Shown piece by piece: positions 3,733-47,823 of a DNA stretch of 64,000 nucleotides (positions are counted from its first letter, which is position 1; each line of letters begins with the position of its first letter). The translations under genes and the position numbers were made by a program. Source of the stretch: Rhodanobacteraceae bacterium (GTDB lineage: Bacteria > Pseudomonadota > Gammaproteobacteria > Xanthomonadales > Rhodanobacteraceae); assembly GCA_016790075.1 (NCBI GenBank), contig JAEUPP010000032.1, forward strand, positions 1 through 64,000. The letters are read 5' to 3'. The notes under the pieces are model-generated. The model made no database searches. It had not been told where the DNA came from and saw only the letters and a program-made list of their open reading frames with translations.

Positions 3733-3775
3733 GTCGGTCTCCTTGTGATGTGTCGATAGTGTTGGTGGGCGAGGT

Positions 3776-4165
3776 TCATGCGGCGTTGGACAGGCGTGGC
3801 CACAGCGCACCGGCCATGACGCCGAGCAGTAGCCCGACGGCGTCGCGGGCCAGGTCGTCGTAGTCCGCATAACGTCCGGGAACCCAGATCTGTATCAGTT
3901 CGGATACCACCGCGACGGCAATGCCGATGGCAAACACCATCGCCACAGAAAAAAGACGCGAGCGGCCCGTAGCGCGCAAGGTCGCTGTCCATGTCCAGGC
4001 TACAAGACAAAATAAAGGTATATGTAAAAAATTTAACAATGGCTGCCATTCGGGGTTTTCGCTCAGGGGAACGAGCAAGCCGAGCGAGCCAAGCACACTG
4101 ATGAAGATGGCCAGCCGCGTGAGCGGAGCCGCCTGCCGGTGCCGATTGGCTGGCGAATCAGGCAT
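3776..4165 (-). CDS. VanZ-like membrane protein
   Basis: 129 residues with about four hydrophobic segments (around LAIFISVLGSLGLLVPLS, LLNFLHIPLFCLVAWTW, VAMVFAIGIAVAVVSELIQ and DAVGLLLGVMAGALW). The motif pattern N-FLHIPLF, then SELIQIWVPGRYADYDDLARDAVG, is characteristic of the VanZ-like family, often found in polysaccharide and exosortase-type loci. The biochemical role is unknown. Its ATG lies inside the end of galE (8-base overlap), which implies translational coupling, and glmS follows. Confidence 0.85.
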   Translation of the reverse strand: MPDSPANRHRQAAPLTRLAIFISVLGSLGLLVPLSENPEWQPLLNFLHIPLFCLVAWTWTATLRATGRSRLFSVAMVFAIGIAVAVVSELIQIWVPGRYADYDDLARDAVGLLLGVMAGALWPRLSNAA

Positions 4166-5153
4166 TGCGTCGGGCCGTCAGACGGTGTTCCCAGGCCAAT
4201 GCGCTGCGCGCAATCAGATCAAGGTCATCCAGTTCCGGTTTCCAGCCCAGCACTTGGCGGATCCGAGTGCATTGTGCAATGAGTTCCGGTGGATCGCCCG
4301 CACGGCGGGGTTCTTCGATACAGGGTACCGCCGTGCCGTGTGCGCGGGTCATCGCTGCAAGCACCTCGCGTACGCTGTAACCATGGCCATAGCCGGCATT
4401 GAGTACGGCCGAGGTGCCGCCGTCGCGCAGATAGCGCAGCGCGGCCAGATGGGCGGATGCGAGATCCTCGACATGGATGTAGTCGCGTACGCCGGTGCCG
4501 TCGGGCGTGGGATAGTCGGTGCCGTAGATGGACACATGCGGACGCACACCGATGGCCGCCTCCGCGGCGACCTTCATCAGCAGGGTCGCTTTTGCCGTCG
4601 ACTGGCCGATGCGTTGCCGACGATCGCAGCCCGCGACATTGAAATAGCGCAGCGCGACATAGCGCAGATCGGAGCTGGCGGCAAGGTCGCGCAGCATCCA
4701 TTCGCTCATCAGTTTCGATGTGCCGTAGGGATTGATCGGCATGGTCGGGCTTTCTTCGCTGGCGCTGCCGCCAGGTGGAATGCCGTAGACCGCCGCTGTG
4801 GAGGAGAAGACCACCTGCTTCACCCCACTGTGGAGACAGCACGCGAGCAGGTTGCGCGTTGCGCCGGTGTTGTTGCCGTAATAGCGCAGTGGATCCGCGA
4901 CTGATTCGGGCACGATGGTGCGCGCGGCGAAGTGCATGACCGTCTCGATGTGATGGGCGCGCAGCAGATCGCTTACCAGGGCGAAATCGCCGACATCACC
5001 CACGACCAGCTCGCCGCCGAGGACAGCCTCGCGGAAGCCGGTGCTGAGGTTGTCGAGCACGACGACGCGCTCGCCGGCCTCGATCAGTTGCGCAACGACG
5101 TGGCTGCCGATATAGCCTGCGCCGCCAGTGACCAGGACTGCATGTTTCTTCAT
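4158..5153 (-). CDS. galE: UDP-glucose 4-epimerase
   Basis: 331 residues of an extended short-chain dehydrogenase. It has the N-terminal NAD site TGGAGYIGSH, the SSTAAVYG catalytic strand and YGTSK as the YxxxK pair. It interconverts UDP-Glc and UDP-Gal, and in some members the HexNAc forms. The start is placed at MKKHAVLVTGG (5153). Upstream in-frame codons give non-homologous sequence. The ribosome binding site is weak (ACGAG). It lies 28 bases after the propeller gene and overlaps the VanZ-like gene, so it is part of the operon led by the megasynthase. The N-acetyl versus non-acetyl preference cannot be read with confidence. Confidence 0.92.
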   Translation of the reverse strand: MKKHAVLVTGGAGYIGSHVVAQLIEAGERVVVLDNLSTGFREAVLGGELVVGDVGDFALVSDLLRAHHIETVMHFAARTIVPESVADPLRYYGNNTGATRNLLACCLHSGVKQVVFSSTAAVYGIPPGGSASEESPTMPINPYGTSKLMSEWMLRDLAASSDLRYVALRYFNVAGCDRRQRIGQSTAKATLLMKVAAEAAIGVRPHVSIYGTDYPTPDGTGVRDYIHVEDLASAHLAALRYLRDGGTSAVLNAGYGHGYSVREVLAAMTRAHGTAVPCIEEPRRAGDPPELIAQCTRIRQVLGWKPELDDLDLIARSALAWEHRLTARRNA

Positions 5154-5181
5154 TGTCGAATCTCGTTCATGAGGCGCCGGT

Positions 5182-6846
5182 TCAGGTCGACCAGCGCGAT
5201 GCCAGGTATTTGCCGTCCAGCACATCCAGATCGGCATGCCGGGCATAGGTATGGCAACCGCGCAGGCCGGGTGCCCAGTCGGGTTCGAGCACACCCAGAG
5301 GACGTTCCTGGTACTGGTCTGGTGTCAGCGTCACGATTTCGTGGAAGACGATGGCACGGCCATATTCCGCGGCGCAGTCCTGGCCGGGGCGGATCAGGCG
5401 GCCTGTGTGTTCAAACACCGGGCCGGCCGGACGCGCCCGGCGCACATCCGTGCACACGGGGTTCTGGGCATGGGGTTGCCACGGCCCCGCGGGCGAGGGC
5501 GCATGAAAAAGGAACAGTTCGTTCCATTCCCGGCCTTCGTCATCGAACGGCGTTTCCGCGACGCAGGCGAACATCCACCAGCGTCCGTCGCGTTCGAACA
5601 ACGTCGGGTCGACCATGCGCCAGCCGTGCAGGAGTGTGACCGAGTGCGTCCAGCGGTTTGGGAAATGTTCGCAATTCCACAAGTCAACACGGCCAGCCAG
5701 AGCGGACTCCACGACCAGGAAGGTCCGGCCTTGCCAGTGGAGCAAGTGCGGATAGGACAGGTGATGGGGCTGGCGCAGCACGGTGTGAGTCGCCGCTACA
5801 TCGAGTTGTCCGTCGAGCTCCAGCGCCTGGATTTCGCCGCGTCCGGTGGCGTAGTCATAGGCTTCGACCAGCACGAAATCCCGCCCTTCATGGCGCCACG
5901 GTGCCGGGTCTGCCCAGAACCAGCCACGCGGCGGCCGCAGCCGGCGCAGGCTGCCGGGTGTCGGTCGAGCCGGATCGAGCGGTTGTGCGGCTCGACGTAC
6001 GGCAATGTGCCAGTGCTCGCGCAGGAATGGCCGGCCGAGGTGGCGCCGGACACCGCGTGCGAGCACGCGCAGACCCAGCAAGAGGGTTCCTAGGGCGCCG
6101 GGCCTGAACCCGCTTTGTGCCGGGGTCTGGCGCCGGATCTGCCCGTTGGCCAGACGGCGCAAGGCGCGCGTCAGCTGGGCGGGAACTTTTTGCAGTTGGT
6201 ACGCGCGGTGACGGGTGAAGCTGATCTGAGCTACGGAGATTTCACCGGGTTCCAGCAGGATCCAGGCATCGGCCTGGCTGTCATGTACGCGCAGCCCGGT
6301 CGTGGCGCTGGAATGTCCGGCGCGGAAGTCCTCCAGCATCCAGCTGCCGCAGCGCAGCGACGACATTGCGTCGGATTCGAGAGTCCAGGCGCCGAATCTG
6401 GCGGCACGGGCGAAACGGCCATCGGGGGGCGGTAGGCCTACCAGCAACAGCAGATCCGGCTGCAGGTCATCCAGCAATTTCAGCAATGTGTCGGTGGCGG
6501 CGGTGCGACCGGCGGCCAGCGTGATGCCGTCGACGCGCTGCAGCGCGGCACCAGTGGGCAGCAGGGGGGCGGGCTGCAGAATCTGGCGTAATGGTCCGGC
6601 GATAGCCTGGTCCCAGCGCAGGTAGCGATCGAAGGCCCCGGTACCGTGTGAATCCGGGGCAGGGGCCAGATCAGTGCTGCACCAGGTGAGCTGCAGGAAT
6701 TCGCAGTCGCACAAGGCGTGCAGGCTTTCAGCGAGCCAACGCGGACCCGTGTCCTGGCCGCTCAACACAACGACCACACGCAGCGGTGCGCTGGCGACTT
6801 CGGGAAACAGACGCGAGCGTCCTGCCTGTGGCGTGCAATCAGCCAT
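5182..6846 (-). CDS. Formyltransferase-like plus beta-propeller protein, GINT1-N-like
   Basis: 554 residues in two parts. Residues about 20-240 look like a degenerate formyltransferase N-domain (VVVVLSGQDTGPRWLAESL, LQPDLLLLVGLP, FGAWTLESDAM, STATTGL-like region). Residues about 290-554 form a glycosidase-like five-bladed propeller with repeated acidic and aromatic motifs (GWFWADPAPW, FVLVEAYDY, LSYPHLL, RMVDPTLFERDGRWWMF). This combination resembles bacterial relatives of the N-terminal domain of plant glucosamine inositolphosphorylceramide transferase. They occur in polysaccharide and natural-product clusters, and a transferase role is assumed rather than proven. It overlaps the hydrolase gene upstream by 8 bases. 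It is a candidate for moving a formyl, sugar or peptide group in this locus. Confidence 0.6.
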   Translation of the reverse strand: MADCTPQAGRSRLFPEVASAPLRVVVVLSGQDTGPRWLAESLHALCDCEFLQLTWCSTDLAPAPDSHGTGAFDRYLRWDQAIAGPLRQILQPAPLLPTGAALQRVDGITLAAGRTAATDTLLKLLDDLQPDLLLLVGLPPPDGRFARAARFGAWTLESDAMSSLRCGSWMLEDFRAGHSSATTGLRVHDSQADAWILLEPGEISVAQISFTRHRAYQLQKVPAQLTRALRRLANGQIRRQTPAQSGFRPGALGTLLLGLRVLARGVRRHLGRPFLREHWHIAVRRAAQPLDPARPTPGSLRRLRPPRGWFWADPAPWRHEGRDFVLVEAYDYATGRGEIQALELDGQLDVAATHTVLRQPHHLSYPHLLHWQGRTFLVVESALAGRVDLWNCEHFPNRWTHSVTLLHGWRMVDPTLFERDGRWWMFACVAETPFDDEGREWNELFLFHAPSPAGPWQPHAQNPVCTDVRRARPAGPVFEHTGRLIRPGQDCAAEYGRAIVFHEIVTLTPDQYQERPLGVLEPDWAPGLRGCHTYARHADLDVLDGKYLASRWST

Positions 6847-7645
6847 GTGTTGGCCTCGGAAACGCCGCCTGAACCCAGGCCAGCACGGACTCGATCAGGC
6901 GATCACGGTCGTCGGGATCGAAGAACAGATGATCGCATTCCGGCCAGTGTTGCAGGGTGATCCGTTCATCGCCGGATTGCGGACCGAACGTAGTGTGGAA
7001 TTGTCTACGATGCAGCATGTAGTTTGCGGCACCGCCAGTGTAGAGCGCGAACAGGCGCACATCGCGCTGCAGCAGCTGCGCGAGTTGTTCGCGTTCGGTG
7101 CCGATGGCGGGCCAGTCGCGGTAGTCGTTCACGGTCGGACGAGGGGCTGCCGCTGCCGGCGGACTGAGCTGCTGCCTGAACATGGCCCACCAGCGTGACG
7201 GCGGGCGCAGTGCGGCCAGACGCAACTGTCCGACGCGATACCAGAAACCCGGTCGCGCGAGGCCGTCGAGCAGGAGCAGCCCCTGCACGCGTGCATCTGT
7301 GCCGGCGATCTGCCAGGCATGGTCAGCAGCACTGCAGATGCCGCCGAGCACGAAGCGCGTGCAGCCGGTTGCCGCCTGGACACGATCCAGGACGTCAGTG
7401 TGGATCTCGTGGCGTGTGCGGTCGGCGGCGGCCAGGGCATCGCCGATGCCGGGCGCATCCCAGCGCAGAGCCACATAGCCAGCTGCGGTCAGCCGGCGGG
7501 CGAGTTCCACGTACAGGCGAAAAGGCCCGGTGCGATGAATCATGCCGGCGTTGAGCAGGACCAGGGCCGTATCGCTTCGTCTGTCTTGTGGAAGATGCAG
7601 CAAGCCGAAGCGCTGCCCGCCCAGATCGAGAATCTGTTCGTTCAC
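6839..7645 (-). CDS. Exosortase-A-system-type hydrolase 1 (alpha/beta hydrolase, Cys nucleophile)
   Basis: 268 residues of the alpha/beta-hydrolase fold. The nucleophile elbow reads GGICSAAD, so the nucleophile is probably cysteine rather than serine, as in dienelactone hydrolase. The likely catalytic His is in WPECDHLFF. Features such as LLNAGMIHRTGPFRLYVELA and LRWDAPGIGD match the family known from exosortase A loci as hydrolase 1 (TIGR03100-like). The start is GTG at 7645, overlapping the stop of the preceding gene (GTGA), with GGAG about 10 bases upstream. Directly downstream of the megasynthase and its partner hydrolase, it is a good candidate for releasing or editing the carrier-bound product. 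Substrate unknown. Confidence 0.75.
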   Translation of the reverse strand: MNEQILDLGGQRFGLLHLPQDRRSDTALVLLNAGMIHRTGPFRLYVELARRLTAAGYVALRWDAPGIGDALAAADRTRHEIHTDVLDRVQAATGCTRFVLGGICSAADHAWQIAGTDARVQGLLLLDGLARPGFWYRVGQLRLAALRPPSRWWAMFRQQLSPPAAAAPRPTVNDYRDWPAIGTEREQLAQLLQRDVRLFALYTGGAANYMLHRRQFHTTFGPQSGDERITLQHWPECDHLFFDPDDRDRLIESVLAWVQAAFPRPTHG

Positions 7646-8406
7646 GATGCGGATCTCCCGGCCTGCGCCAGTGTTGCTGCGATCTCGGCGATCGCCTGGG
7701 CCGGAAACGGTGCACTGATGTCGATTTGATCGGCCCAGTCCGCCAGTGCCGCGGGCAGCGGGATGTTTCGCACCGGTTCGATCGGTTCCGGTACGGACCG
7801 GTCCAGCACGATGCAGTCAGCAGGCAATTCGGCCAGTGTGCGGGGGTAGATACTGGCGCTGAACGTCGGACCAAGGCGAAAGCCCATCAAGCTGCCGGCT
7901 GCAACCGGACGTTGCGTGCCGCTGCGCTGGAATGGGAAGCGCCGCGTGGAACGGCGTTCTTCGCTATCGCGGCGCTGCAGGACCTGCAGCCATTGGGCGC
8001 CGGAGTGGACCGGTTGCCACAGCACCAGTGGCAGTTGCTGCAGCCGGGCCAGCGGCGCGGCTATCAGTGCGCCGGCGCGAATACCCATGATGGTGACGGG
8101 GATATCGGGCAGCAATTGGCGCAAATGCGCCAGCGCAAATTCCGCATCGGTGTCAGCGCTGTCCAAGTCGAGAGACTGGCTGTCACCGCTGGAGTCGCCG
8201 CTGCCGGCATAGTCAAAGCGTAGGCTGGCGATGCCGTGTGTAGCGAGCGACTGGGCGAGCAAAGCAAACAACCGATGGCTGCGCGGGTGTTCATGCAGCA
8301 TCGGCGGACACAGCAGGTAGGCCTGCCGCGGCGCCTCGATCGGGCGTTGCAGCACGGCGAAGAGGTTTTCTCCGCCGGCGTTGAGGTACATCGGTATCTG
8401 CCGCAT
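7642..8406 (-). CDS. Exosortase-A-system-type hydrolase 2, nucleophile replaced
   Basis: 254 residues. The alpha/beta-hydrolase core is recognisable (LLCPPMLHEHPRSHRLFALL, LRFDYAGSGDSSGD). At the nucleophile elbow the sequence reads IMGIRAGALIA, with arginine where Ser or Cys is expected, as I recall for the family called exosortase A system-associated hydrolase 2 (TIGR03101-like). It may therefore be non-catalytic or use other chemistry, perhaps working as a partner of hydrolase 1. Its ATG shares a base with the stop codon of the megasynthase gene (TGATG), so the two are translationally coupled. The C-terminal third is degenerate. Confidence 0.72.
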   Translation of the reverse strand: MRQIPMYLNAGGENLFAVLQRPIEAPRQAYLLCPPMLHEHPRSHRLFALLAQSLATHGIASLRFDYAGSGDSSGDSQSLDLDSADTDAEFALAHLRQLLPDIPVTIMGIRAGALIAAPLARLQQLPLVLWQPVHSGAQWLQVLQRRDSEERRSTRRFPFQRSGTQRPVAAGSLMGFRLGPTFSASIYPRTLAELPADCIVLDRSVPEPIEPVRNIPLPAALADWADQIDISAPFPAQAIAEIAATLAQAGRSAS

Positions 8407-11400
8407 CAGGAGGGGCTACCTTGCAGACCGAACAGACGGCTGAGGCGGCCACGCCACCCGCCGCGCGATACCTGTTCGGGCGCCGGTGAGGTCGTTGCGG
8501 TTGCCGGCAGTTCATTGGCCAGAGCTTGCAGGCTGTTGTTGGCCAGGTTCAGCAGGTTCAGGCGAACCCCGGTCTGTGCCTCGATGCGCGTCAGCAGCCG
8601 CAACGCCAGCAGCGAATGCCCGCCGACATCGAAGAAATTGTCATCTGGCCCGACTGACGCGTGGCCGACCAGCTCGCGGCACAGCGCGACCAGCAAGGCC
8701 TCGCGTGGGTCCAACTGGCACGGATCGATGGACGGCGTAGCGTTTGTCTGCGCCGCGGGCGCAGGCAATGCGTGGCGGTTGATCTTGCCGTTCGGCAGCA
8801 GGGGCAAGGATTCGAGCGCGACGATGTGCTGCGGCAGCATGTAGCCAGGCAGATGGTCACGCAGGTGCGCGCGCACGAACGCGTCGTTGGGCGTCCGGCC
8901 CTGTGTGCCGACGACGTAGGCAACCAGTTGCGGGTCCGCGGGTGAGTCTTCCCGCAGCATGACGACGCAGTTGCTGACGGCCTCGTGAGTCAGCAGGCAG
9001 GCCTCGATTTCACCGGGCTCGATGCGGAAACCACGCAATTTCACCTGGAAGTCCAGCCGCCCCAGGTGTTCGAGCTGACCGTCATGGCACCAGCGGCCGC
9101 GATCGCCGGTGCGATACAGGCGGGCGTTCCTGCCTGCTGCAAGCTCGCCCGTCTGAAACGGATCGCTGATAAAGCGTTCGGCACTGAGTTCGGGCTGGTG
9201 CAGATAACCCAGGCTGACACCGTCGCCGCCGATCCAGATTTCGCCTGGCACGCCGATGGGGCAGGGCTGACGGTAGCGGTCGAGCACATGGACCTGCGTG
9301 TTGCGGATGGGAAGCCCTATGCGTATGCCTGCCGACGGATTTTCCACACGCCATAGCGTCGACCACACCGTCGTTTCGGTCGGGCCGTACAGATTCCACA
9401 CGCTGCCGGCGCGCTTGAGCAGGGCTTGTGCGAGATCGGGCGCCAGTGGTTCGCCGCCGACCAGCGCACGAAAACGGGGCGAGCCGCGCCAGCCGGCGTC
9501 GATCAGCAGACGCCAGGTGGTGGGTGTTGCCTGCATTACGGTCGCGCGTGTGTGTTCCAGCACGCGGCGCAGGGCTGCGCCGTCGGCAGCCGACTCGCGC
9601 GTGGCCAGTTCCACACGGGCGCCGCAGTACAGCGGCAGCAGCAATTCCAGAACGGCGATATCGAATGACAGCGTCGTCACGGCGACCAGGGTGTCGCTGG
9701 GCTTCAGGCCGGGCTCCACCGCCATGCTGCGCAGGAAGTTCACTACTGCACGATGCGGTACGACCACACCTTTGGGCTGGCCGGTGGAGCCGGACGTATA
9801 GATGACATAGGCCGGATCCTCCGCGCTTGCATCGCGTGCGGGGTCTGGCGGCAATGCCACAGCGGGCTGTGTCTGGTAGCTGGTGTCCTGATCCAGCAGT
9901 AGCGTAGCTGCGGCCGGCCAGGCGACGACATCGGCCTGCGCGGTTTCCGTGATCAGCAGCGCCAGTTGTGCGTGCCGCGCCATATGCTTGAGGCGCTCAC
10001 GCGGATAAGTCGGGTCCAGCGGCACATACGCGGCGCCGGCTTTCAGGGTCGCCAGCACGGCTACCAGCATCTGCGGCGTGCGTTGCAGGCACAGGCCGAC
10101 CAGCGCGCCGCGCTGAATGCCGCGTTCGCGCAGCGCGCGGGCGAGGCGATTGGCAGCAGCTTCCAGTTCGGCATAGCTGAGGCGTTCGTCCCCGGCGCTG
10201 ATCGCGATCGCGTCGGGCTGCTGCCGCGCCTGCGCAGCGAGCAGGTTGCCAATGCATTCGGCGTCCGGGTTCGGCTGCAAGGCTGGTTGGCTCAGCAATT
10301 CAAGCCGCGTGCGTTCCTCTGGCGACAGCAACGGCAACTTGCACAGGGGCTGGCTCTGCGTCTCCGCGCGGGCGAGTACTTCGTGCAGCAGCGTCTGGAA
10401 TCGGCCGGCGATCAGCGCGGCGCTGGCGGGCTCCAGCACATCCGTATTGAAGGTAAATACGGCGATGAGTTTCGTGGCCGTTTCCACACACCACAGGGAA
10501 AGGTCCTGGGCCGCGGCGTGCAGCGGAATGGTCACGCGTTCGTGGCTCAGATTGCCCCAGTGGGTCGGCCGTTCGCGCACATCCTGGAACGAGAACAGCG
10601 CCTGTGTCAGCGTTGGGCGGCTGTTGTCGCGTGGAATCTTCAGCTCGCGTACCAGGTGTTCCATTGGCACGTCCGGACAGGCGTAGGCATCGACCACCAT
10701 GCCGCGTGTACTGGCCATCCATTCCCGCAGTGTGGCCTCGGGCTGGTAGCGCGAGCGCAGCGGCAGCGCATTGACGAAGAAGCCCATGACCGGTTCGAGC
10801 TCCGGGCGTTCGCGCGCGCGCACCGGTGTGCCGATGATGATGTCGTCCTGCTGGCTCAGGCGATGCAGCAGCAAGGCGAAAACCGACAGCAGCGTCACGA
10901 ACAGGGTGTTGCCCTGGCGTGCACTGAGCGCGTGCAATGCATCGAGCGTGTGGCGATCGAAATGGACATAGTGCGAGGCGCCGCGACCGGACATCGCCGG
11001 CGGGCGTGGCCGGTCCAGCGGCAGTTCCAGCGGCGGCGGCAACGGACTGAGCATCTTGCGCCAGTGCGCCATCTGCCGGGCCAGCTCGGGGCCGCTCATC
11101 CAGTCGGTGTGCCAGGCGGCAAAATCGCCGTAGCGCACCTGCAGTTCCGGCAGTGCGACCGGCCTGTCCTGCCGGCATGCGTCGTATAGCGCGGCCAGGT
11201 CGCTGTACAGCAGGTCGAAGGACCAGCCGTCCCAGATCAGATGATGCGCCATGAAGAAAAACACATGTTCCTCGGGCGCCATCCGGAACAGCGCCATGCG
11301 GAACAACGGGCCACGGGCAAGATCGAAGGGAGCTACGAGCTGTTCGGCGATGTAAGCCTGCAACGCTGCCTCGGCCTGGTCGCGCGGCAGCGCCGAGAGA

Positions 11401-14400
11401 TCGCTCCAGGGCAGTAGCAGTTCGACCGATGCCAGCACGCGCTGGCGATCGCCGCTGGCATCCGACTCGATTACCGTACGCAGCACGTCCTGCCGCTGCA
11501 GCAGCTGTTGCAGCGCACGTTCAAAGGCTGGCCGGTTGAAGTCGCCACGCAGCCGGTGCGCCGATGGAACGTTGTGGACTATGGTTCCCGGGCTCAGTTG
11601 TTCCAGAAACCACAGGCGCTGCTGCATCATCGACAGTGGTGCGGTGGTGCCGTCGGCGCGGCGTGGAATCGGTTCCAGCGGAGTACTGATGTTGCTCGCT
11701 GCCTTGGGCCCGAACAAGGCAACCGCGAGCGCGTTCGGCGTGGCTGCCTCGAAAATCGTGCGCAGGCCCGGGCGCACACCCAGCACCTCGTTCAGGCGTG
11801 CCGACAACTTGGCGGCCAGCAGCGAGTGCCCGCCCAGCTCGAAGAAATGCTGGTGCGGTTCGACGCGAGAGCGGCGCAGGACTTCGGCCATGCAGCGCGC
11901 GACGATCTGTACCGGGTCGTCCTGTGGCGGAGTCTCCGCTGCTACAGGGGATGCTGCTGCCGCGGCGACATAGGGCGGGGCATCCGTATCCGGTGCGGGC
12001 AGGGCTTTGCGGTTGGTCTTGCCGTTGGGCAGCAGCGGGATTTCCTGCAGTGCAACCACGTGCTGGGGCAGCATGTAGTCCGGCAGGCGCTGCGCCAGAT
12101 GGGCGCGCAGCGCATTCAGTCCGGGGCAGTCGCCCGCCGCGACTACATACGCCACCAGGCGCACGTCGGCGGCATCGAAGGCGTGAGCATTGACGACGCA
12201 GCGCAGCACCTGCGGATGGGTCAGCAGCAGGGATTCGATCTCGCCGAGTTCGATGCGATTGCCACGGACCTTGACCTGCTGATCGGCCCGGCCGAGATAC
12301 TCGATGGCGCCGTCGTCCAGCCAGCGCCCCAGATCACCGGTGCGGTACAGGCGTCCGTCGGCAACGAAGGGATCTTGCAGGAAACGCTCGGCGGTCAGTT
12401 CCGGTCGCGCTACATAGCCCAGGCCGACCTGTACACCGCCGATATACAGTTCACCGACCTCACCGATTGCAACCGGCCGCTGCGCGTCATCGAGGACGTA
12501 CATGCGCGTATTGGCGATCGGCCGACCAATCGGGATGATCCGCCGCGGATCGTCCGGACGGCATTCCCAGAACGTGACATCGACGGCCGCTTCGGTTGGC
12601 CCGTACAGGTTGGCCAGGCGGACTCCGGGCAGGCAGGCGAAGAAACGGTCGACCGCATCGATAGGCAAGGCCTCGCCCGAGCAGATCACGCGGCGCAGGT
12701 TGCGGCAGCGCTCCAGGCCGGGCTCTTCCAGGAACAGGCGCAGCATCGACGGCACGAAATGCAGCACGGTGATGGACTCGGCCGCGATCAGATCAGCCAG
12801 GTAGCTGCTGTCGCGGTGTCCTTCCGGCCGGGCGATGACCAGCGTAGCGCCACTCATCAGCGGCCAGAAGAACTCCCAGACCGAAACGTCGAAGCTGTAA
12901 GGCGTCTTCTGCAGCACGCGGTCGCGCGCACCGAGCTGGTATTCCTGCTGCATCCACTGCAGCCGGTTGACGATGCCGCGATGGGCATTGGCCGCACCTT
13001 TGGGCCGCCCGGTCGAGCCGGAGGTAAAAATCACATAGGCCATGTCGTCGGCGCTGCCAACCAGCGCCTCGGCCCCGATGGCCTGGTGTTCGTCCAGCTC
13101 GGGCGCTGTGTCCAGGAACAACAGCCATGCCTCCGCCGGAAACGCGTCGCCGGCGCGTTTGTGTTCAAGGCCGCGGGTGACGATGACGCCCAGTGAGGCA
13201 TCCTCGCACATGCCCTGCAGTCGCTCGGGCGGGTAGCTGGGATCCAGCGGCACATAGGCGCCGCCACTGTAGATAACGCCTAGCAGCGCGGCGACCAGTT
13301 CGACGCTGCGTTCGAGGCAAACCCCGACCAGCACGCCAGGACCGACGCCGCGCTCGCGCAGCCGGTGCGCGATGGCCCAGGCCAGGCGATCAAGTTCAGC
13401 ATAAGTAACCGACCGCCCCTCGAAGCGCAGCGCCGTCGATGCGGCGTGCTGGCTTGCGCCACGCTGCAACAGATCGCCTAGCCGCAGTGGCGATTCGTAG
13501 GCGACCTGGGTGGCATTCCATTGGGCGATAGTTCGCGCGTCGCGGTCATCGTGCACGGCTGCCGGTGCCACCGTTGCGACCGGAACACCTGTCAGTTCAG
13601 TCAGCACGTCGCGCAGCGCATTGACTAGTTCGTCTGCGCGTTGTGGGCTGAAGAACTCGGTGCTGTAGTGCAGATCCAGGGTCAGCGTGTCGGCGGTTTC
13701 GTAGAAATTGAAGATCAGTTCGCTGAGCAGGCCGGGCTTGCGGGTTTCATGAATCTCTGCGGCGAGCGGCGCGAATTGGCTCAGGTCAATGCGCGGGTTG
13801 AGATTGAAGAAGACGCCGGTCAATGGTGGCCGATCGCCGTGGCTGGGCAGGCCCAGCGCGCGCGCCAGCGTGCCTTGCGTGATCAGCGGGTGTTCCAGCG
13901 CATCCATCAGCTGGGCGCGCACCTGCGGCAGCAGCGCCAGCACATCAGATGCGTCGGCGCAGCGCAGCCGGATCGGCAGATCGAGCACGCCGTCGCCGAT
14001 CAGTGCCTCGTAACGGCCAAGGCTCTGGCTGGCAAATGGGACACTCAGTACAAAATCGTTTTGTGTACTCAGTCGCCGGATCATCGTGGCTACCGCGGAC
14101 AACAGCAGCTGGAACAGGGTCGCACGCTGTTGCCGTGCCAGCTGCTGCAGGGCGCGATACAGCTCCCCGTCGATTGGCGTCTTGCGCGTATCGGCGGTGA
14201 ACTCGCGGCGTTGCGGCGGGCTGCGGTCCCCCAGGTTCAACGCTGGCGGAACGTCGCAGAATTGCCGGCGCCAGTAGCGCAGCGATTCTTCGCCTTGTGG
14301 CCCGGCCATACGCGACTGTTCGTCTGATGCGAAGACGCAAGGCGACTGTGCGGCGGGGAACTGCGGCGCCTGACCCTGACAGCGCGCGCGATAGGCCTGT

Positions 14401-17400
14401 GCCAGTTCACGCAGCAGAACGCTGGACGCCCATCCGTCGAAGACCAGATGGCTGGCGACCAGGTGGATCGCCACCCGATTGCTGCTCAATTGCAGCAGGC
14501 TCAGCTCGATCAGCGGGGCTGCATCGAGCTGGAAGCGGTGTTGGCCGGCTTCATGGCAGTAGCGTTCCAGCGCGGCCTGTGGGTCTGCCTGTGCGCGCAG
14601 ATCGATCGCCTTGAACCGTGGCGTAATGCGCCTGTCCACGCGCTGCAGTGGTTCGCTCGCGTCGAAGCCCAGCCGGAATGCATCGTGCCGGGTCATTGCA
14701 TCGTGCAGAGCCTGCTCCAGCGCTGGCAGATTGATGTCGCCCTGCAGGCTCAGGCACAGGGTTTCGTTGAGCGCGCGCAGTGCATCCGCAGCGTAGCTCG
14801 CCGCCAGCCAGCGTTCGGTCTGTCCTGTGGTGAGCGGCCCCTGAGTGTCCGCGCCGGGTTCGTCACCCGGAGTTCCGTCGGGCGGCGGCAGGCCGTCACG
14901 GCGCGTGATGAAGCCTCGCGCCATCAAGGTGCCCAGCGATTCGATGAATACGTCGGCGATGCGGGTTATCTCGGCCTCGCCCATCGCCTCGGTGACGAAG
15001 TGGCCGAACTGCTCGTACAGGTGCAGGCCGTGATAACGCGCCAGATAGTAGAAGAGGCTGACATATTTCTGCTCGTCGTCCCAGATCAGTCGCCACAGCG
15101 ACGCACAGTGCACGGCCTTGACCGGCGCGTTGCGTGCAATGAATGCGGCATTGAGCCGGTCGACCAGCCGCTGAGTGCGGGCGTTCAGATCGTCGTAGAA
15201 GGCCTGTCCGCGTTGCTTCAGGTATTGCAAGGTGGCTTGCGCCGCTGCCAGGGCCAGGGGATGGCGCACAAAGGTACCGGCGAAATAGGTGACGCCGGCC
15301 TCCGGGTAAGAATCGTCGCCGTACTGCCAGTGGCCGCCGTCCAGTGCGTCCAGCCAGTGCGCCGCGCCAGCGATAGCCGCGAAAGGCAGGCCGCCGCCGA
15401 TGATCTTGCCGTAGGTGCAGATGTCAGCGCGCACACCGTAGAACTGCTGTGCGCCAGCCGGTGCGAGGCGGAAACCGGTCACCACCTCATCGAAGATCAG
15501 CGCGCAGCCGGCCGTGTCGCAGATCTCGCGCAGCTGTTGTACAAATTGCCTCGGTTGGAGGGTTGGATACTTGTTCTGGACCGGCTCTATCATGATGGCC
15601 GCGAGTTCGTGCCCGCGCTCGCGCAGTACGCGCAGCGAATCGTCGCTCGCGTAGTCGAGAACCAGCACATTCTCCACCGCGCTGGCGAGAATGCCGGGTG
15701 CGGCCGAAATCGAACGCAGCTGACGCGTGCCGCGGACGATCACCTCGTCGAAAATGCCGTGATAGGAGTTGGTGAAGATGGCAATGGTCTTGCGCCCGGT
15801 AACTGTGCGGGCGATGCGCATCGCACCCATTACTGCTTCGGAACCGGTATTGCAGAAACCGACACGCGCCATGCCAGTCATTTCGCACAGCAGCTCTGCC
15901 ACTTCCGCGGCGAGCGGGTGCTGCGGACCGACCTCGATGCCCGCCTCCAGCTGCGCCTGCATGGCCGCACGCACGGACGGCACCTGATAGCCGAGCAGAT
16001 TGGCACCGAAGGCCGACAGCAGGTCGATGTAGGCATTGCCGTCGAGATCCCACATCCGCGCGCCGTCGGATCGCTGCACGACGATCGGATAGACCAGGTC
16101 CTTCCACAGCGGGTTGAAGCCGGTCACGACGCGGGGGTCGGCCATGCGCGCCCGATGCTGCTGGCTGAACGCGCGTGACTTGCCGCTGCGCGAGAGATAG
16201 CGTTCAGTGAAGTCGGCTAGCCAGGCACGTTGCGCCGGGCTCAGCTCCGACTGCGGTTTGACTGTGATACGCGCAGACGCGCCGAACGGCGCTTCACGCA
16301 GGTTCGGCGTGGTTTCCGCAGGCGTGGTTTCCGCAGGTGCCGCAGCAGTGCCTGCAACGGTGGGCAGTGCGGAGACTGACGCAGTCGCCACCGCCTTGGC
16401 GGGAGCGGCGGTCTGGCCGGACAGCAGGGCAAGGTGCTGCGCCATCAGCGCCGTCTGCTGCTGGATCAGTTCAACCAGGGGATTGCCAGCCAGCAGCGGT
16501 GCTGCGCTGGCCGCTGTCGTTGCATGTACGACCGACGCTGGCGCTGCAGGTAGCGGCACCGGTGTGGTGGAAGCCGGTGCAAACCGTTCCGGTGGAAGTT
16601 CACTATGGAAAAATGCTACAAGCCGGCTGACGCGATCGAGATCTTCCATCAGGCGCCGGAGGCGTAGCTTGATGCCAAAGACACGCTCCAGCTCAAGACT
16701 GGCCTGGGTCAATGACAAGGAGTCGAAGCCTTGTTCGATCAGGCCCTGATCGCGGTTGATTTCAGCGCTGGACATGCCCGAGACATTGCTCAGCAGGCGT
16801 AGCACTTCCTGTTCGATCAGGGGACGACGATCACTCACGCGGGATTCCTCTGCCGACGCAACAGCGACGGCATCATGCGACTGGAGTGGAGACTGGATCG
16901 TTGCAGCGGGCGCTGCGGGGCGGCGGAACCAGAAGCGGGTATCGGCGAACGGGTAGGTCGGCAACGAGGCACGGGCTGCGTTGCGCGGCAGCGGCCAGCG
17001 CAGCGGGACGCCGGCGCGCCACACGGCACCAAGTGCGTTCAGCGCATGCCATGGCGCGTCGCTGGCCTGGTCCGCGCGCCCCAACAGCGGGATGCAACGA
17101 GCCGGTCGCCCTTGCGCATCACGTTGTGAACGCAACAGAGCGGAAAGTGCCTGAGCTGGCCCGACTTCGACGAAGACCGTATCCGCGTGCTGCAGTTCGG
17201 CGCTGATCGCCGGGCCGAACTGGACACAGGCGCGGACCTGACGTGCCCAGTAGTCCGGATCGACCGCCTCGTCGGCGCGCAGATGCTGGCCGCTGACGCA
17301 GGAGTACAGCGGAATACCCGGTGCCTGCAGCGTCAGGCGCAGCAGCGTCTGCGCCACGGCGGGAAGGGCAGCGTCCATGTGTGCGCTGTGGAAAGCGTGG

Positions 17401-20400
17401 CTGACCTGCAGGCGTTTGCAGCCAATCGACGCGTTGCCCAGCCGTTCGGCCAATGCGGTTATGGCAGCGACGGAACCGGCGACCACGGTCGATTCGGGCG
17501 CGTTGACGGCAGCGATTTCGAGATCGCCGTCCAGCCAGGCGGAAACGCTCTCGGCGGTCGCACGTACCGCCAGCATGGCGCCGCCCGGTTGCGCATGCAT
17601 TGCCGTCCCGCGCGCACAGACCGCGGTGGCCGCATCGGCCAGCGACAGCACGCCGGCCCGGCACGCTGCTGCGTATTCACCGATGCTGTGACCGATCAGG
17701 CTTGCCGGAACCAGGCCCAGACTATCCAGCCATGCGGTCAATGCATACGACACACAGAACAGTGCTGGCTGCGCGTAACGGGTCTGGTTCAGCAGCGCAG
17801 CGGCATCGCCATCATCGATGGCGCAGTCGATCAGCAGGCGGCGCAGGTCGACGTCGACATGCGGTTCGCAGGCGCCAAGCGCCGCATCGAGTGCGGCGCG
17901 AAACGCGACGATCTCGTGATAGAGCCCGGTCGCCATGCCCGGATGCTGCGAGCCCTGGCCAGGATACAAGTACACAAGTCGCGGTCCCTCCAGGGCAGGA
18001 GTGGCGCTGCGCAGGGCGCGTAACGCCACGGCGGCGTCGGCAGATCCACGCGCGGCCACGGACAGCCGATGCGGCAGATCGGCGCGGCCGCGTATCAGGC
18101 TGGCGGCGACACTCGCCAGGTTCTGTTCCGGGTGTAGTTCCAGCCAGTTCGCCAGATCCTGCGCACGCCGTAGCGCGGCTTCCGGCGTGCGCGCCGACAG
18201 CGGCAGCAGCTCGACGCCGTGGGCGGGCTGCGCCAGCGGGCGCGTTGGCGGTGCTTCCTGCAGCACCAGGTGTGCATTGGTACCGCCGACACCGAAGGAA
18301 CTCACTGCGGCGTAGCGCGGCACTTCGGTACGCGGCCACGGCACCGCTTGCGCGCTGACGCGAAACGGTGTTGCGCCAAAATCGATCTGTGGATTGGGGC
18401 GGCGGAAATGCAGCGTCGGCGGAATGATCTGGTGGTGCAGGCTAAGGCTTGCCTTGATCAACCCCAGTACACCGGCAGCGGCGATGGTATGTCCGATATT
18501 TCCCTTCAGCGATCCCAGCACGCAATAGCCGTGGCCGGCGCTGTCGTGCTCAAACGCGCGTGTCAGTGCGGCGACCTCGATCGGGTCGCCGAGGGCGGTG
18601 CCGGTGCCGTGGGCTTCCACATAACCCAGTTGGCTGGCTCGCACCTGCGCGTGGTCCAGCGCCATGCGGATCGCCGCGCTCTGGCCACGCACGCTGGGCG
18701 CGGTAAAGCTGGCTTTCTCCCCACCGTCGTTGTTGAGGCCAATGCCGCGGATCAGCGCATACACCGTATCGCCATCGGCTTGTGCATCGGCGAGCCGTTT
18801 CAATACGACCAGGCCCGCGCCGCTGGAGAACACGGTACCGCTGGCATCGGCATCGAAAGGCCGGCAATGGCCGTCCGCCGATTCCATGCCGCCTTCCAGG
18901 TGCAGGTAGCCACCCGCCTCAGGGACGATGACGGTAGCGCCGCCGGCGAGAGCGACATCGCACTGCCCGGCAAGTAATGCCTGCGCCGCCTGAGCCACCG
19001 CGACCAGGCCGGTGGAGCAAGCGGTGTGTACGCTGACGGCGGGCCCGTTGAGGTTCAGCCGATGGGCAATTCGCGTGGCGACGTAGTCTTTCTCGCTGGC
19101 CAGCATGGCCACGAACTCGCCACTCTGGCTGATGAGTTCGGGCTGCGCGGCACGTAAGGCGCCCAGATAACTGTTGTTGGCGGTACCGGCGTAGACACCG
19201 ATACACGTGTCCGCGTCGAGCGGGTCGACTCCGGCATGTTCGAGTGCTGTCCAGGCAAGCTCCAGCAGCACGCGTTGCTGGGGGTCGATCAGGGTGGCCT
19301 CGCGCGCCGGAATGCCGAAGAACTCGGCATCGAATCGGTCGGCGGCAGCGAGGACACCACGCGCTGCGACGAAGTTGGGTCGCTGGCGTAGATCCATTGG
19401 CACCGATGGATCCAGTTCGTCAGCAGCAAAGTGGCGTATGCCCTCGCGGCCGTCGAGCAGGTTGCTCCAGAACTCATCGACCGAGTCCCCACCGGGCGTA
19501 CGCGTCGCCATTCCGACGATGGCGATGGCGTCATTGTCGCCATCCGGCCGGATGCGCGGGTTGGCTCTGGGGGAGGCGGATTCAAACAGCATCGCCTGGC
19601 CGGCGATGGTGGGGTGGTCGTAGACGTCGGCCACGCTCAGCCGGCGGATGCCGTGCTGCTGCAGGCGCGCCAGAAAACGCAACACCAGCAGAGAGCGGGC
19701 GCCGGCCTCGAACAGGTTGGCGCGATCCGACAGCGTGGGTTGTCCTAGCAGTTCGCGCCAGAGCTCGCCGACCAGATTCCGTTGCGCATGAGGCGCGAGC
19801 GGAGCGGTGGCCGATGTGGTCTCGTCGATCAGCGGCAAAGGCAATGCGCGCCGATCGATCTTTCCACTGGGCGTCAGGGGTAGCTGGTCCAGACGCTGAT
19901 AGCGGACCGGCTGCATGTAGTCGGGCAGTCGCTCGCGCAGATCGGCGCGCAAACGCTGTTCTAGCGTGTCCAGGTCAGCCTGCGCAGTCGCTGGACTGGC
20001 CACGATCCAGGCCATGAGCTGGCGCCCTGCACCCGCAAGTTCGACCGCGCCGACGGCGGCATCCTTGAGTTGCGGATGCGCCAGCAGCGCGACTTCGATT
20101 TCGCCGGGTTCGATGCGATAACCGTCGATCTTGAGCTGCTGGTCGCAGCGGCCGAGGTAAACCAGCGTGCCATCCGCGCTGCGTTGAACGCGGTCCCCGG
20201 TGCGGTACCAACGCTCTCCCGGTGCATCTTGCTGCACGCAGAAACGTTCGGCGCTCAGCTCGGCCTGGCCGAGATAACCATGCGCCAGTGTGTCGCCGCC
20301 GAGCAGCAGCTCACCCTCGTCGGTATCACCGTCGTCGAGGGCGCGCAGGCGGATGTGTACATGCGGCAGTGCCTGGCCTATGGGGGGAATGACCGGCCAG

Positions 20401-21353
20401 CGGCCGGGATCGCCATCGAGTTCGTAGGCCGTGACGACATGGGTTTCGGTAGGGCCATAGTGATTGTGCAATACAGAATTAGGCAACTTTTTGAAAAAGT
20501 TTCTAATTGCCGGCGTTATCTGCAGCTGTTCGCCGGCGCTGATCACATCACGCAAAGGCGGGTGCGGGTGCCCGGCACAGGCATCGGCCAGCATCTGCAG
20601 GGCGACATAGGGCAGGAACAGCCGCTCCAGCCGATGCTGGCACAAGGACTGTGCCAGCAATTGCGGATCGCGGCGTTGTGCCTCGGTGAGCAGCACCAGG
20701 CAACCGCCACAGGCGACGGTGGAAAGAATCTCCTGGAAATGCACGTCGAAAGACAGTGGTGCAAATTGCAGGGTGCGTGCGGCTGTGCCCAGTCGCGGGT
20801 GGGCGGCGTGCCAGGCGATCAGGTGCCGCAGCGGTCGCTCACCCATGGCCACGCCCTTGGGGCGGCCGGTTGACCCCGAGGTGAACAGCACGTAGCGCAG
20901 ATCGTCCGCGGCGGCGAAGGGCGAGGGCTCAGCCGCGGCCGGACTGTCGAGGCTCGGCAAGGGGCCGAGCACGACCTCAAGCGCCGACGTTTCACCGACC
21001 ACGGCGCGTGGCCGGCTCTCGTCGAGCATGAAGCGCAGGCGATCGGCGGGGTAGGCCAGATCCAGGGGGACGTAGGCCACGTCCGCATGGATCGCCGCGA
21101 GGATTGCAACGATGGTACCCGGTGAGCGTGTTGCCGCGATGCCGATCCGGTCGCCCGGCTGCAACCCGGCGCGGCCGATACGCTCCGCCAGTTGCACGAC
21201 CTCGTGTGCCAGTGCCGTATAGCTCATTTCCCCGTCGGACCAGCGCAAGGCGCAGCCGTCCGGCCAGCGCCGCACTGCGCGCATCAGCCAATGCGAAAGG
21301 GCGGGCGATTCGCCCGCCGCGATGTCGTCAAATGCGCCTGTCATGTTCGTCAC
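8406..21353 (-). CDS. Hybrid NRPS/PKS megasynthase with aminotransferase domain
   Basis: 4315 residues. Domains in order, active residue in brackets: loading A (about 1-510), PCP (Ser554), KS (about 606-1030; Cys779 in TACSTG, EAHGTG, KGNIGH), AT (about 1128-1430; Ser1223 in GHSIGE, HAFHS malonyl motif), ACP (Ser1545), class-III aminotransferase (about 1700-2140; PLP Lys1983), C (His2302), A, PCP (Ser3177), C (His3371), A, PCP (Ser4247). No KR, E or TE domain. Aligning by eye to the ten GrsA pocket positions gives DVQFIAHVVK (Pro), DVWHISLVDK (Ser) and DILQLGLVWK (Gly), starting near residues 203, 2822 and 3898. The KS-AT-ACP-AMT order matches iturin/mycosubtilin synthases, where a beta-keto thioester becomes a beta-amine. 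The start is GTG at 21353; an in-frame ATG at 21344 is an alternative. Two hydrolase genes follow without a gap. Confidence 0.95.
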   Translation of the reverse strand: MTNMTGAFDDIAAGESPALSHWLMRAVRRWPDGCALRWSDGEMSYTALAHEVVQLAERIGRAGLQPGDRIGIAATRSPGTIVAILAAIHADVAYVPLDLAYPADRLRFMLDESRPRAVVGETSALEVVLGPLPSLDSPAAAEPSPFAAADDLRYVLFTSGSTGRPKGVAMGERPLRHLIAWHAAHPRLGTAARTLQFAPLSFDVHFQEILSTVACGGCLVLLTEAQRRDPQLLAQSLCQHRLERLFLPYVALQMLADACAGHPHPPLRDVISAGEQLQITPAIRNFFKKLPNSVLHNHYGPTETHVVTAYELDGDPGRWPVIPPIGQALPHVHIRLRALDDGDTDEGELLLGGDTLAHGYLGQAELSAERFCVQQDAPGERWYRTGDRVQRSADGTLVYLGRCDQQLKIDGYRIEPGEIEVALLAHPQLKDAAVGAVELAGAGRQLMAWIVASPATAQADLDTLEQRLRADLRERLPDYMQPVRYQRLDQLPLTPSGKIDRRALPLPLIDETTSATAPLAPHAQRNLVGELWRELLGQPTLSDRANLFEAGARSLLVLRFLARLQQHGIRRLSVADVYDHPTIAGQAMLFESASPRANPRIRPDGDNDAIAIVGMATRTPGGDSVDEFWSNLLDGREGIRHFAADELDPSVPMDLRQRPNFVAARGVLAAADRFDAEFFGIPAREATLIDPQQRVLLELAWTALEHAGVDPLDADTCIGVYAGTANNSYLGALRAAQPELISQSGEFVAMLASEKDYVATRIAHRLNLNGPAVSVHTACSTGLVAVAQAAQALLAGQCDVALAGGATVIVPEAGGYLHLEGGMESADGHCRPFDADASGTVFSSGAGLVVLKRLADAQADGDTVYALIRGIGLNNDGGEKASFTAPSVRGQSAAIRMALDHAQVRASQLGYVEAHGTGTALGDPIEVAALTRAFEHDSAGHGYCVLGSLKGNIGHTIAAAGVLGLIKASLSLHHQIIPPTLHFRRPNPQIDFGATPFRVSAQAVPWPRTEVPRYAAVSSFGVGGTNAHLVLQEAPPTRPLAQPAHGVELLPLSARTPEAALRRAQDLANWLELHPEQNLASVAASLIRGRADLPHRLSVAARGSADAAVALRALRSATPALEGPRLVYLYPGQGSQHPGMATGLYHEIVAFRAALDAALGACEPHVDVDLRRLLIDCAIDDGDAAALLNQTRYAQPALFCVSYALTAWLDSLGLVPASLIGHSIGEYAAACRAGVLSLADAATAVCARGTAMHAQPGGAMLAVRATAESVSAWLDGDLEIAAVNAPESTVVAGSVAAITALAERLGNASIGCKRLQVSHAFHSAHMDAALPAVAQTLLRLTLQAPGIPLYSCVSGQHLRADEAVDPDYWARQVRACVQFGPAISAELQHADTVFVEVGPAQALSALLRSQRDAQGRPARCIPLLGRADQASDAPWHALNALGAVWRAGVPLRWPLPRNAARASLPTYPFADTRFWFRRPAAPAATIQSPLQSHDAVAVASAEESRVSDRRPLIEQEVLRLLSNVSGMSSAEINRDQGLIEQGFDSLSLTQASLELERVFGIKLRLRRLMEDLDRVSRLVAFFHSELPPERFAPASTTPVPLPAAPASVVHATTAASAAPLLAGNPLVELIQQQTALMAQHLALLSGQTAAPAKAVATASVSALPTVAGTAAAPAETTPAETTPNLREAPFGASARITVKPQSELSPAQRAWLADFTERYLSRSGKSRAFSQQHRARMADPRVVTGFNPLWKDLVYPIVVQRSDGARMWDLDGNAYIDLLSAFGANLLGYQVPSVRAAMQAQLEAGIEVGPQHPLAAEVAELLCEMTGMARVGFCNTGSEAVMGAMRIARTVTGRKTIAIFTNSYHGIFDEVIVRGTRQLRSISAAPGILASAVENVLVLDYASDDSLRVLRERGHELAAIMIEPVQNKYPTLQPRQFVQQLREICDTAGCALIFDEVVTGFRLAPAGAQQFYGVRADICTYGKIIGGGLPFAAIAGAAHWLDALDGGHWQYGDDSYPEAGVTYFAGTFVRHPLALAAAQATLQYLKQRGQAFYDDLNARTQRLVDRLNAAFIARNAPVKAVHCASLWRLIWDDEQKYVSLFYYLARYHGLHLYEQFGHFVTEAMGEAEITRIADVFIESLGTLMARGFITRRDGLPPPDGTPGDEPGADTQGPLTTGQTERWLAASYAADALRALNETLCLSLQGDINLPALEQALHDAMTRHDAFRLGFDASEPLQRVDRRITPRFKAIDLRAQADPQAALERYCHEAGQHRFQLDAAPLIELSLLQLSSNRVAIHLVASHLVFDGWASSVLLRELAQAYRARCQGQAPQFPAAQSPCVFASDEQSRMAGPQGEESLRYWRRQFCDVPPALNLGDRSPPQRREFTADTRKTPIDGELYRALQQLARQQRATLFQLLLSAVATMIRRLSTQNDFVLSVPFASQSLGRYEALIGDGVLDLPIRLRCADASDVLALLPQVRAQLMDALEHPLITQGTLARALGLPSHGDRPPLTGVFFNLNPRIDLSQFAPLAAEIHETRKPGLLSELIFNFYETADTLTLDLHYSTEFFSPQRADELVNALRDVLTELTGVPVATVAPAAVHDDRDARTIAQWNATQVAYESPLRLGDLLQRGASQHAASTALRFEGRSVTYAELDRLAWAIAHRLRERGVGPGVLVGVCLERSVELVAALLGVIYSGGAYVPLDPSYPPERLQGMCEDASLGVIVTRGLEHKRAGDAFPAEAWLLFLDTAPELDEHQAIGAEALVGSADDMAYVIFTSGSTGRPKGAANAHRGIVNRLQWMQQEYQLGARDRVLQKTPYSFDVSVWEFFWPLMSGATLVIARPEGHRDSSYLADLIAAESITVLHFVPSMLRLFLEEPGLERCRNLRRVICSGEALPIDAVDRFFACLPGVRLANLYGPTEAAVDVTFWECRPDDPRRIIPIGRPIANTRMYVLDDAQRPVAIGEVGELYIGGVQVGLGYVARPELTAERFLQDPFVADGRLYRTGDLGRWLDDGAIEYLGRADQQVKVRGNRIELGEIESLLLTHPQVLRCVVNAHAFDAADVRLVAYVVAAGDCPGLNALRAHLAQRLPDYMLPQHVVALQEIPLLPNGKTNRKALPAPDTDAPPYVAAAAASPVAAETPPQDDPVQIVARCMAEVLRRSRVEPHQHFFELGGHSLLAAKLSARLNEVLGVRPGLRTIFEAATPNALAVALFGPKAASNISTPLEPIPRRADGTTAPLSMMQQRLWFLEQLSPGTIVHNVPSAHRLRGDFNRPAFERALQQLLQRQDVLRTVIESDASGDRQRVLASVELLLPWSDLSALPRDQAEAALQAYIAEQLVAPFDLARGPLFRMALFRMAPEEHVFFFMAHHLIWDGWSFDLLYSDLAALYDACRQDRPVALPELQVRYGDFAAWHTDWMSGPELARQMAHWRKMLSPLPPPLELPLDRPRPPAMSGRGASHYVHFDRHTLDALHALSARQGNTLFVTLLSVFALLLHRLSQQDDIIIGTPVRARERPELEPVMGFFVNALPLRSRYQPEATLREWMASTRGMVVDAYACPDVPMEHLVRELKIPRDNSRPTLTQALFSFQDVRERPTHWGNLSHERVTIPLHAAAQDLSLWCVETATKLIAVFTFNTDVLEPASAALIAGRFQTLLHEVLARAETQSQPLCKLPLLSPEERTRLELLSQPALQPNPDAECIGNLLAAQARQQPDAIAISAGDERLSYAELEAAANRLARALRERGIQRGALVGLCLQRTPQMLVAVLATLKAGAAYVPLDPTYPRERLKHMARHAQLALLITETAQADVVAWPAAATLLLDQDTSYQTQPAVALPPDPARDASAEDPAYVIYTSGSTGQPKGVVVPHRAVVNFLRSMAVEPGLKPSDTLVAVTTLSFDIAVLELLLPLYCGARVELATRESAADGAALRRVLEHTRATVMQATPTTWRLLIDAGWRGSPRFRALVGGEPLAPDLAQALLKRAGSVWNLYGPTETTVWSTLWRVENPSAGIRIGLPIRNTQVHVLDRYRQPCPIGVPGEIWIGGDGVSLGYLHQPELSAERFISDPFQTGELAAGRNARLYRTGDRGRWCHDGQLEHLGRLDFQVKLRGFRIEPGEIEACLLTHEAVSNCVVMLREDSPADPQLVAYVVGTQGRTPNDAFVRAHLRDHLPGYMLPQHIVALESLPLLPNGKINRHALPAPAAQTNATPSIDPCQLDPREALLVALCRELVGHASVGPDDNFFDVGGHSLLALRLLTRIEAQTGVRLNLLNLANNSLQALANELPATATTSPAPEQVSRGGWRGRLSRLFGLQGSPS

Positions 21354-21488: not shown

Positions 21489-22496
<1,008 letters not shown>

Positions 22497-22722: not shown

Positions 22723-24015
<1,293 letters not shown>

Positions 24016-25626: not shown

Positions 25627-25635
25627 TGCGCACGG

Positions 25636-26277: not shown

Positions 26278-26449
26278 GGCGCGGAACTCTCCTGGACCAG
26301 CCGAAAAACTGTGACGGACTTCTCATTATGTGCGGGCCTACACTATGATTCCAGCCCGCCCTGCGGCTCGTCCGCAAGACTACGCATCCTGCCTGGATGT
26401 GAGTCGTCAAACCGACCCTACCGTCCTATCTGTCTCGCAGGAGGCTGTC

Positions 26450-29345: not shown

Positions 29346-29346
29346 C

Positions 29347-30675: not shown

Positions 30676-30684
30676 GGATCACTG

Positions 30685-37970: not shown

Positions 37971-37989
37971 CAGGGAGGTTGTTGAACGC

Positions 37990-47718: not shown

Positions 47719-47755
47719 GACTTGTTAGTCGCATTCGGCCGTGTTAACGGCCGCC

Positions 47756-47788: not shown

Positions 47789-47823
47789 TCTGCGACATGT
47801 AAAAAATTATCTGTCGACCTGCA

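Follow-up and report, generated by a model that had tools for sequence, protein, structure and literature searches.

The large NRPS/PKS synthase encoded on a 64,000-nucleotide stretch of a Rhodanobacteraceae genome (contig JAEUPP010000032.1, positions 1 to 64,000; this whole stretch is referred to as the window) keeps conserved company with exopolysaccharide (EPS) genes, a pattern suggesting a product destined for the polysaccharide coat and not a free antibiotic. The synthase has the domain architecture and residues of an assembly line and is linked in the genome to EPS genes, while its product would be attached to a glycan. We consider it an even call that the enzyme is dedicated to supplying EPS decoration with a short acyl-peptide that bears an amine, acting like a greatly enlarged Dlt system.

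The synthase gene (8406..21353, minus strand) encodes 4315 aa and starts with GTG, with an ATG present at codon 4. A local domain scan gave the order A-PCP-KS-AT-ACP-AMT-C-A-PCP-C-A-PCP, and Pfam identified three AMP-binding, two Condensation, one KS (N and C parts), one AT and one class-III aminotransferase domain as well as four PP-binding stretches, with family E-values spanning 1e-39 to 1e-243 (KS N 3e-70, AT 1e-54, AMT 6e-50, PP-binding 4e-45, KS C 1e-39). Coordinates and domain order are those of the original prediction. With approximate boundaries, A1 lies at 19854..21296, KS (located by Pfam, domain scan and motifs) at 18264..19544, AT at 17034..17981, C1 at 13464..14756, A2 at 12009..13436, C2 at 10284..11660 and A3 at 8769..10256, while AMT occupies 14907..16292. 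Pfam found neither a thioesterase nor a reductase family at the C-terminus, and the ORF stops shortly past PCP3. We located the motifs TACSTG, EAHGTGT and NIGHT in KS, GHSIG and HAFH in AT, YGKIIGG in AMT and HHLIWDG in C2, and Ser is present in all four carrier domains; by its motifs AT is presumably malonyl-type. All active-site residues checked had been described as intact, and this holds for most motifs, but C1 reads SHLVFDG, with Ser in place of the first His and the second His retained, and PCP1 shows a small departure (GARS). Further NRPS genes occur elsewhere in the same genome (contigs C39, C66 and C10), with 17 of 19 condensation-domain matches located off the synthase contig.

The nine-residue codes of the adenylation domains would, by the usual assignments, select Pro for A1 (DVQFIAHVV), Ser for A2 (DVWHISLVD) and Gly for A3 (DILQLGLVW). 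A1 matches amino-acid adenylation domains best (linear gramicidin synthase, 409 bits), and its code is complete, in keeping with the earlier description of an iturin-like core with an amino-acid start. The predicted product is 3-amino-3-(pyrrolidin-2-yl)propanoyl-Ser-Gly, formed through one malonyl extension and a transamination. The closest solved relative of the AMT domain is that of mycosubtilin synthase (6KFU/6KFM; 384 bits for 6KFU), which takes its amine from Gln according to a passage of PMC3870968. The codes vary among 19 close relatives with an AMT identity of at least 52%. The first domain is Pro-like in 5 (G004, G061, G049, G035 and G010), Val-like in 11 (DALW or DAFW ... GGTF) and neither in 3 (G062, G050 and G030). 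In second position, 12 have a Gly-like domain (DILQ), 6 have the unassigned code DIMQVGGVY and G004 has a Ser-like domain; Ser-like second domains are also seen beyond this set in L120 and L153. A Gly-like third domain is present in G004, G020, G043 and G012 and is encoded by a separate gene in G030; in G063, G041, G018, G027 and G052 the third domain looks degenerate (first Asp missing) while C and PCP are retained, and the remaining close relatives have no third domain. We count this variation, together with the five degenerate-looking domains, against a dedicated supply to EPS.

Downstream of the synthase, whose stop overlaps the next start (TGATG), the minus strand encodes two alpha/beta hydrolases, hyd2 (7642..8406) and hyd1 (6839..7645), a GINT1_N-family protein (5182..6846), galE (4158..5294) and glmS (1900..3870). 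The ORFs from hyd2 to galE overlap in succession, and for this reason the synthase, hyd2, hyd1, GINT1-like and galE genes may form a single transcription unit. Both hydrolases are relatives rather than members of the curated families, hyd1 scoring 57.5 bits with TIGR03100 (cut-off 168) and hyd2 78 bits with TIGR03101 (cut-off 203); hyd1 has Cys104 at its nucleophile elbow, where hyd2 has Arg. The elbow Cys is conserved in 34 of 34 hyd1 sequences, and a Rhizobium assembly line carries a fused TE with the elbow GLCVNG. Both observations count towards supply to EPS, as does the scan of the eight genes on the synthase side (1900-24015), in which no exporter family turned up. The GINT1-like protein has a C-terminal GH43/62/130-like propeller and an N-terminal half that weakly resembles formyltransferases; in L102 (16137-18755) it carries a fused C-terminal stretch resembling a family-2 glycosyltransferase. 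Upstream of the synthase lie an NAD-dependent epimerase (21489..22496) and a TviB-like nucleotide-sugar dehydrogenase (22723..24015; 576 bits, cut-off 592) that exceeds the cut-off of the general NDP-sugar dehydrogenase family, both on the minus strand. The neighbours had been named as glmS, galE and a uronate epimerase. The first two score above cut-off (837 bits against 418 and 425 bits against 262, the galE start being probably further in), but family matches leave the substrate of the epimerase unsettled.

Facing these genes on the plus strand is the EPS operon. It begins with an EpsB_2 priming sugar transferase (24220..25626; TIGR03013 above cut-off), followed by an export protein (TIGR03027) and a chain-length protein (TIGR03007, ChnLen), both above cut-off (26330..28635). 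A beta-barrel protein, a deacetylase-like protein, glycosyltransferases and two AsnB-like proteins are encoded at 28684..39852, and a Wzy_C-type polymerase/ligase and a MurJ/Wzx-type flippase at 39849..42652, with Wzy_C and MurJ/Wzx above the Pfam cut-offs. The NCBIfam and Pfam matches confirm that the synthase faces a Wzx/Wzy-dependent EPS set, complete with priming transferase, flippase, polymerase, chain-length and export proteins. The first AsnB-like protein (35021-36835) lacks an N-terminal Cys and the second (37990-39852) starts MCGI; since only the second has this Cys, the two may use different amine sources. The ORF at 25623-26348 belongs to no family, has a low-complexity look and is probably not a gene. 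Beyond the operon, a 451-aa protein without a Pfam or NCBIfam family (42872-44227) recurs near EPS/synthase loci of relatives, with two copies each in G061 and G049. Adjoining the operon is also a 1030-aa protein (44590-47682) that has an InhA-like MAM domain and resembles myxosortase- and rhombosortase-dependent M36 proteins. After the locus comes a 1118-aa protein (47741-51097) with a terminal GGDEF diguanylate cyclase domain, possibly a c-di-GMP input.

The association between synthase and EPS genes was analysed by searching for the AMT domain in 119 genomes, comprising the genome of the window and its relatives. Matches at E<=1e-100 were found in 36, with 28 at an identity of at least 52% and 8 at 48% or below. 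All 28 genomes with a close synthase have TIGR03007 above cut-off, compared with 14 of the 91 others (Fisher p = 3.9e-17, ignoring shared ancestry); within the same family the counts are 27 of 27 with synthase and 7 of 44 without (p = 1.8e-13, again ignoring shared ancestry). The 14 relatives weigh against a dedicated supply to EPS, as they show that an XrtA-type EPS does not need the synthase. AMT and ChnLen share a contig in 25 of the 28 genomes; the distance between them ranges over 12-93 kb, with a median of 29 kb, and stays within 51 kb in all but one of the 25. In the other three (G033, G008 and G054) they lie on separate contigs, and a contig end falls at or close to AMT. We examined the neighbourhoods of 25 of the 27 other close members (all except G033 and G008) and found an EpsB_2 homologue within ~30 kb in 23. 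The exceptions are G054, where the contig ends and glycosyltransferase matches and a wzy-like match are present, and G030, where galE alone is found and ChnLen is 45 kb away. In the window's own family and order, homologues of the synthase thus occur mostly with EPS genes, as the original prediction required. The hyd1 gene adjoins a BBP2-type EPS gene in 14 loci, 16-28 kb from AMT, indicating that the parts have been kept together through rearrangement and favouring supply to EPS.

Synthases of lower identity fall into two groups, a contrast that we count in favour of supply to EPS. G085, G101 and G102 have a ChnLen-type gene at 53, 46 and 11 kb (that of G102 below cut-off) and group with the broad clade of the window in a midpoint-rooted tree of 73 of 82 loci, from which 9 with short KS or AMT were left out, as were six additional genomes and plasmid matches (G061 and L152, the latter from Dokdonella fugitiva, being one and the same locus). 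G045, G034, G001 and G003 belong to another clade, together with Paenibacillus-type synthases, and G002 was dropped from the tree. No EPS core was seen in the stretches of these five, which contig ends shorten to 23 kb in G034, 36 kb in G001 and 13 kb in G002. AsnB-like matches in G045 and G003 and a match resembling the 1030-aa protein in G003 are exceptions, and G001 has ChnLen above cut-off on a contig other than that of the synthase.

Two further candidates were considered in the genomes without a close synthase. Replacement of the synthase by a TIGR03098 ligase (ligase_PEP_1) as a general rule was set aside, since matches occur in just 3 of the 14 ChnLen-bearing relatives (G011, G036 and G099, with 355-392 bits against a cut-off of 592, each 28-34 kb from ChnLen on its contig). 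A general place of the TIGR03100 hydrolase among EPS genes was likewise not upheld: of eight such genomes, seven that have ChnLen above cut-off and G089, 6 had no match at E<=1e-8, which is weak evidence because hyd1 of the window itself scores just 57.5 bits. The matches present, two in G089 and one in G099, reached 35-42 bits, that of G099 lying off the ChnLen contig.

A scan of a species-genome collection with an AMT alignment yielded at least 80 loci, 32 of which were examined further. Among the matches listed, the A-PCP-KS-AT-ACP-AMT-C-A order is found in Proteobacteria, Bacteroidetes, cyanobacteria, Planctomycetes and others, and clear EPS genes lie near the synthase in Lysobacter, Pseudoxanthomonas, Rhodanobacter and some proteobacterial MAGs. 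In other phyla EPS genes were scored by tblastn with the proteins of the window, a procedure that can miss distant ones. In Variovorax VAI-C an export protein, a tyrosine autokinase, a sugar transferase and genes for polysaccharide biosynthesis follow downstream, and Rhizobium SL42 has an SLBB protein, an EPS transport family, glycosyltransferases and a pyruvyl transferase near the synthase; both represent pairing with other EPS types, which we count in favour of EPS supply. Among the Pfam families listed for pooled flanking proteins, those of family-2 glycosyltransferases match 7 of 67 proteins in Bacteroidetes and those of family-1 glycosyltransferases 7 of 52 in cyanobacteria, and no EPS core was found at the Bacteroidetes loci with the window's proteins as queries. 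The predicted association of synthase and EPS thus holds in the window's own family and order, but many homologues outside have no EPS operon within the part examined.

These outside homologues bear on the possibility that the product is a free, secreted small molecule, such as a signal or a siderophore-like or antimicrobial diamino-acyl peptide, with EPS merely co-regulated for surface or biofilm life, hyd1 hydrolysing the thioester and an unlinked exporter carrying the product out. We regard this reading as rather unlikely. Homologues without EPS genes nearby speak for it and, equally, against a dedicated supply to EPS. For the closest homologue among the matches listed, in an Aquabacterium MAG (77% AMT identity), Pfam matched 37 families in 39 ORFs flanking the synthase within ~30 kb, and none of the 25 listed is an EPS family. 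Nor was an EPS operon seen by tblastn in the stretch examined in two Xenophilus and in Lautropia, or in the stretch examined on the Variovorax WDL1 and RA8 plasmids and Spirosoma pSLIN02, where WDL1 has one GT1. TolC-family genes occur within the examined stretch in Variovorax WDL1 and RA8, and the AMT synthases of the other clade are, by architecture, of the lipopeptide kind. ChnLen is above cut-off in Aquabacterium and Lautropia, on a contig other than that of the synthase, and TIGR03007 gave no match at E<=1e-20 in either Xenophilus. A free product is harder to reconcile with a linkage that survives rearrangements within the order, with the adjacency of hyd1 to EPS genes and with a synthase side that has no exporter family. 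In addition, hyd2 and hyd1 follow the synthase in Aquabacterium and the two Xenophilus too, where EPS genes were unseen nearby, which we count towards supply to EPS.

The peptide could also be part of another envelope molecule, such as a lipid-linked primer, an outer-membrane lipopeptide or an LPS-type glycan, that draws on the same nucleotide sugars. Here glmS, galE, the epimerase and the dehydrogenase would act as the general sugar-nucleotide suppliers that they are, and Wzy_C is common to O-antigen ligases and polymerases; we nevertheless find this improbable given that XrtA-type chain-length and export proteins accompany the synthase in every one of the 28 genomes. Chance neighbourhood, or an island that merely hitch-hikes with no functional connection, to which the patchy linkage outside the order might point, is very improbable on the co-occurrence and linkage counts (uncorrected for shared ancestry) and on a gene order that is rearranged with its parts retained.

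Under the preferred reading, supply of an acyl-peptide to EPS, A1 would load Pro onto PCP1, as the codes suggest. KS-AT-ACP would then add one malonyl unit without reduction and AMT would convert the beta-keto group to a beta-amine, as expected of intact domains. The two C-A-PCP modules would append Ser and then Gly, leaving the 3-amino-3-(pyrrolidin-2-yl)propanoyl-Ser-Gly chain as a thioester on the last PCP. From there the Cys-elbow hyd1 may release or transfer the chain in trans, assisted by the nucleophile-less hyd2. In the least certain step the acyl-peptide would be joined to an amino sugar within the repeat unit ahead of Wzx/Wzy, giving an EPS with positive charges alongside its uronic acids. 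Counting against this, the locus has no enzyme of known specificity that links peptide and sugar. More tentatively, and with somewhat greater doubt than belief, we propose that NRPS/PKS lines are a standing part of an EPS pathway in which a Pro- or Val-derived beta,gamma-diamino acyl-peptide is put on the repeat by a Cys-nucleophile enzyme, yielding a zwitterionic peptidyl-EPS in many genera of the order and in some rhizobia and Variovorax with other EPS types. Genome mining now classes such synthases as orphan antibiotic-type clusters. If the proposal is right, a family of these clusters gains a function in the polysaccharide coat, EPS gains a new kind of decoration, a positively charged peptide containing a beta-amino acid, that can be tested for directly, and activity screens of culture broth miss the product, which is matrix-bound.

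Several known systems resemble the locus in part. The pairing of such a synthase with polysaccharide genes had been put forward as undescribed, and our literature search, mostly outside subscription journals, found no paper describing it; the A-initiated KS-AT-ACP-AMT order is, however, already known. An entry in Table 2 of PMC3870968 (2013) lists Pedobacter heparinus C6XWU5 as an orphan A-CP-KS-AT-CP-PLP1 with the predicted product Nrp-Mal-Gly-Pk, an opening domain order the same as that of the window synthase. The word 'polysaccharide' is absent from the main text of that paper. Pedobacter relatives from our scan fall in the broad clade of the window.

The EPS operon shares the EpsB_2, ChnLen and export families with XrtA/PEP-CTERM (EpsH) systems, which upholds part of the earlier description of exosortase-type polysaccharide genes. 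XrtA itself (TIGR03109), however, has no match in the genome of the window at E<=0.001 (it is above cut-off in 1 of the 119 genomes), and we therefore rejected the label of an exosortase locus. The genome differs further in that its best TIGR03098 ligase match is far below cut-off (243 bits against 592), as are the window's hydrolases with TIGR03100 and TIGR03101. The original interpretation is thus partly supported, being right at its core and too broad on the exosortase and on the novelty of the A-initiated order.

With iturin and mycosubtilin (MycA) synthases the enzyme shares the KS-AT-ACP-AMT-C-A-PCP order with a class-III AMT. Those synthases open with a fatty-acyl ligase, whereas the window synthase opens with an amino-acid adenylation domain and PCP, has no C-terminal TE for cyclising a long lipopeptide and sits in an EPS locus.

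The Dlt system, which D-alanylates teichoic acids, likewise uses an adenylation domain to load an amino acid on a carrier for a cell-surface polymer. No DltB-type MBOAT is among the Pfam and NCBIfam families listed for the scanned proteins, Pfam having covered part of the EPS operon. The window synthase shares the adenylation domain and carrier protein with Dlt, and transfer to a polymer would complete the parallel, with a multi-module line in place of the single adenylation domain and a Gram-negative EPS as the polymer.
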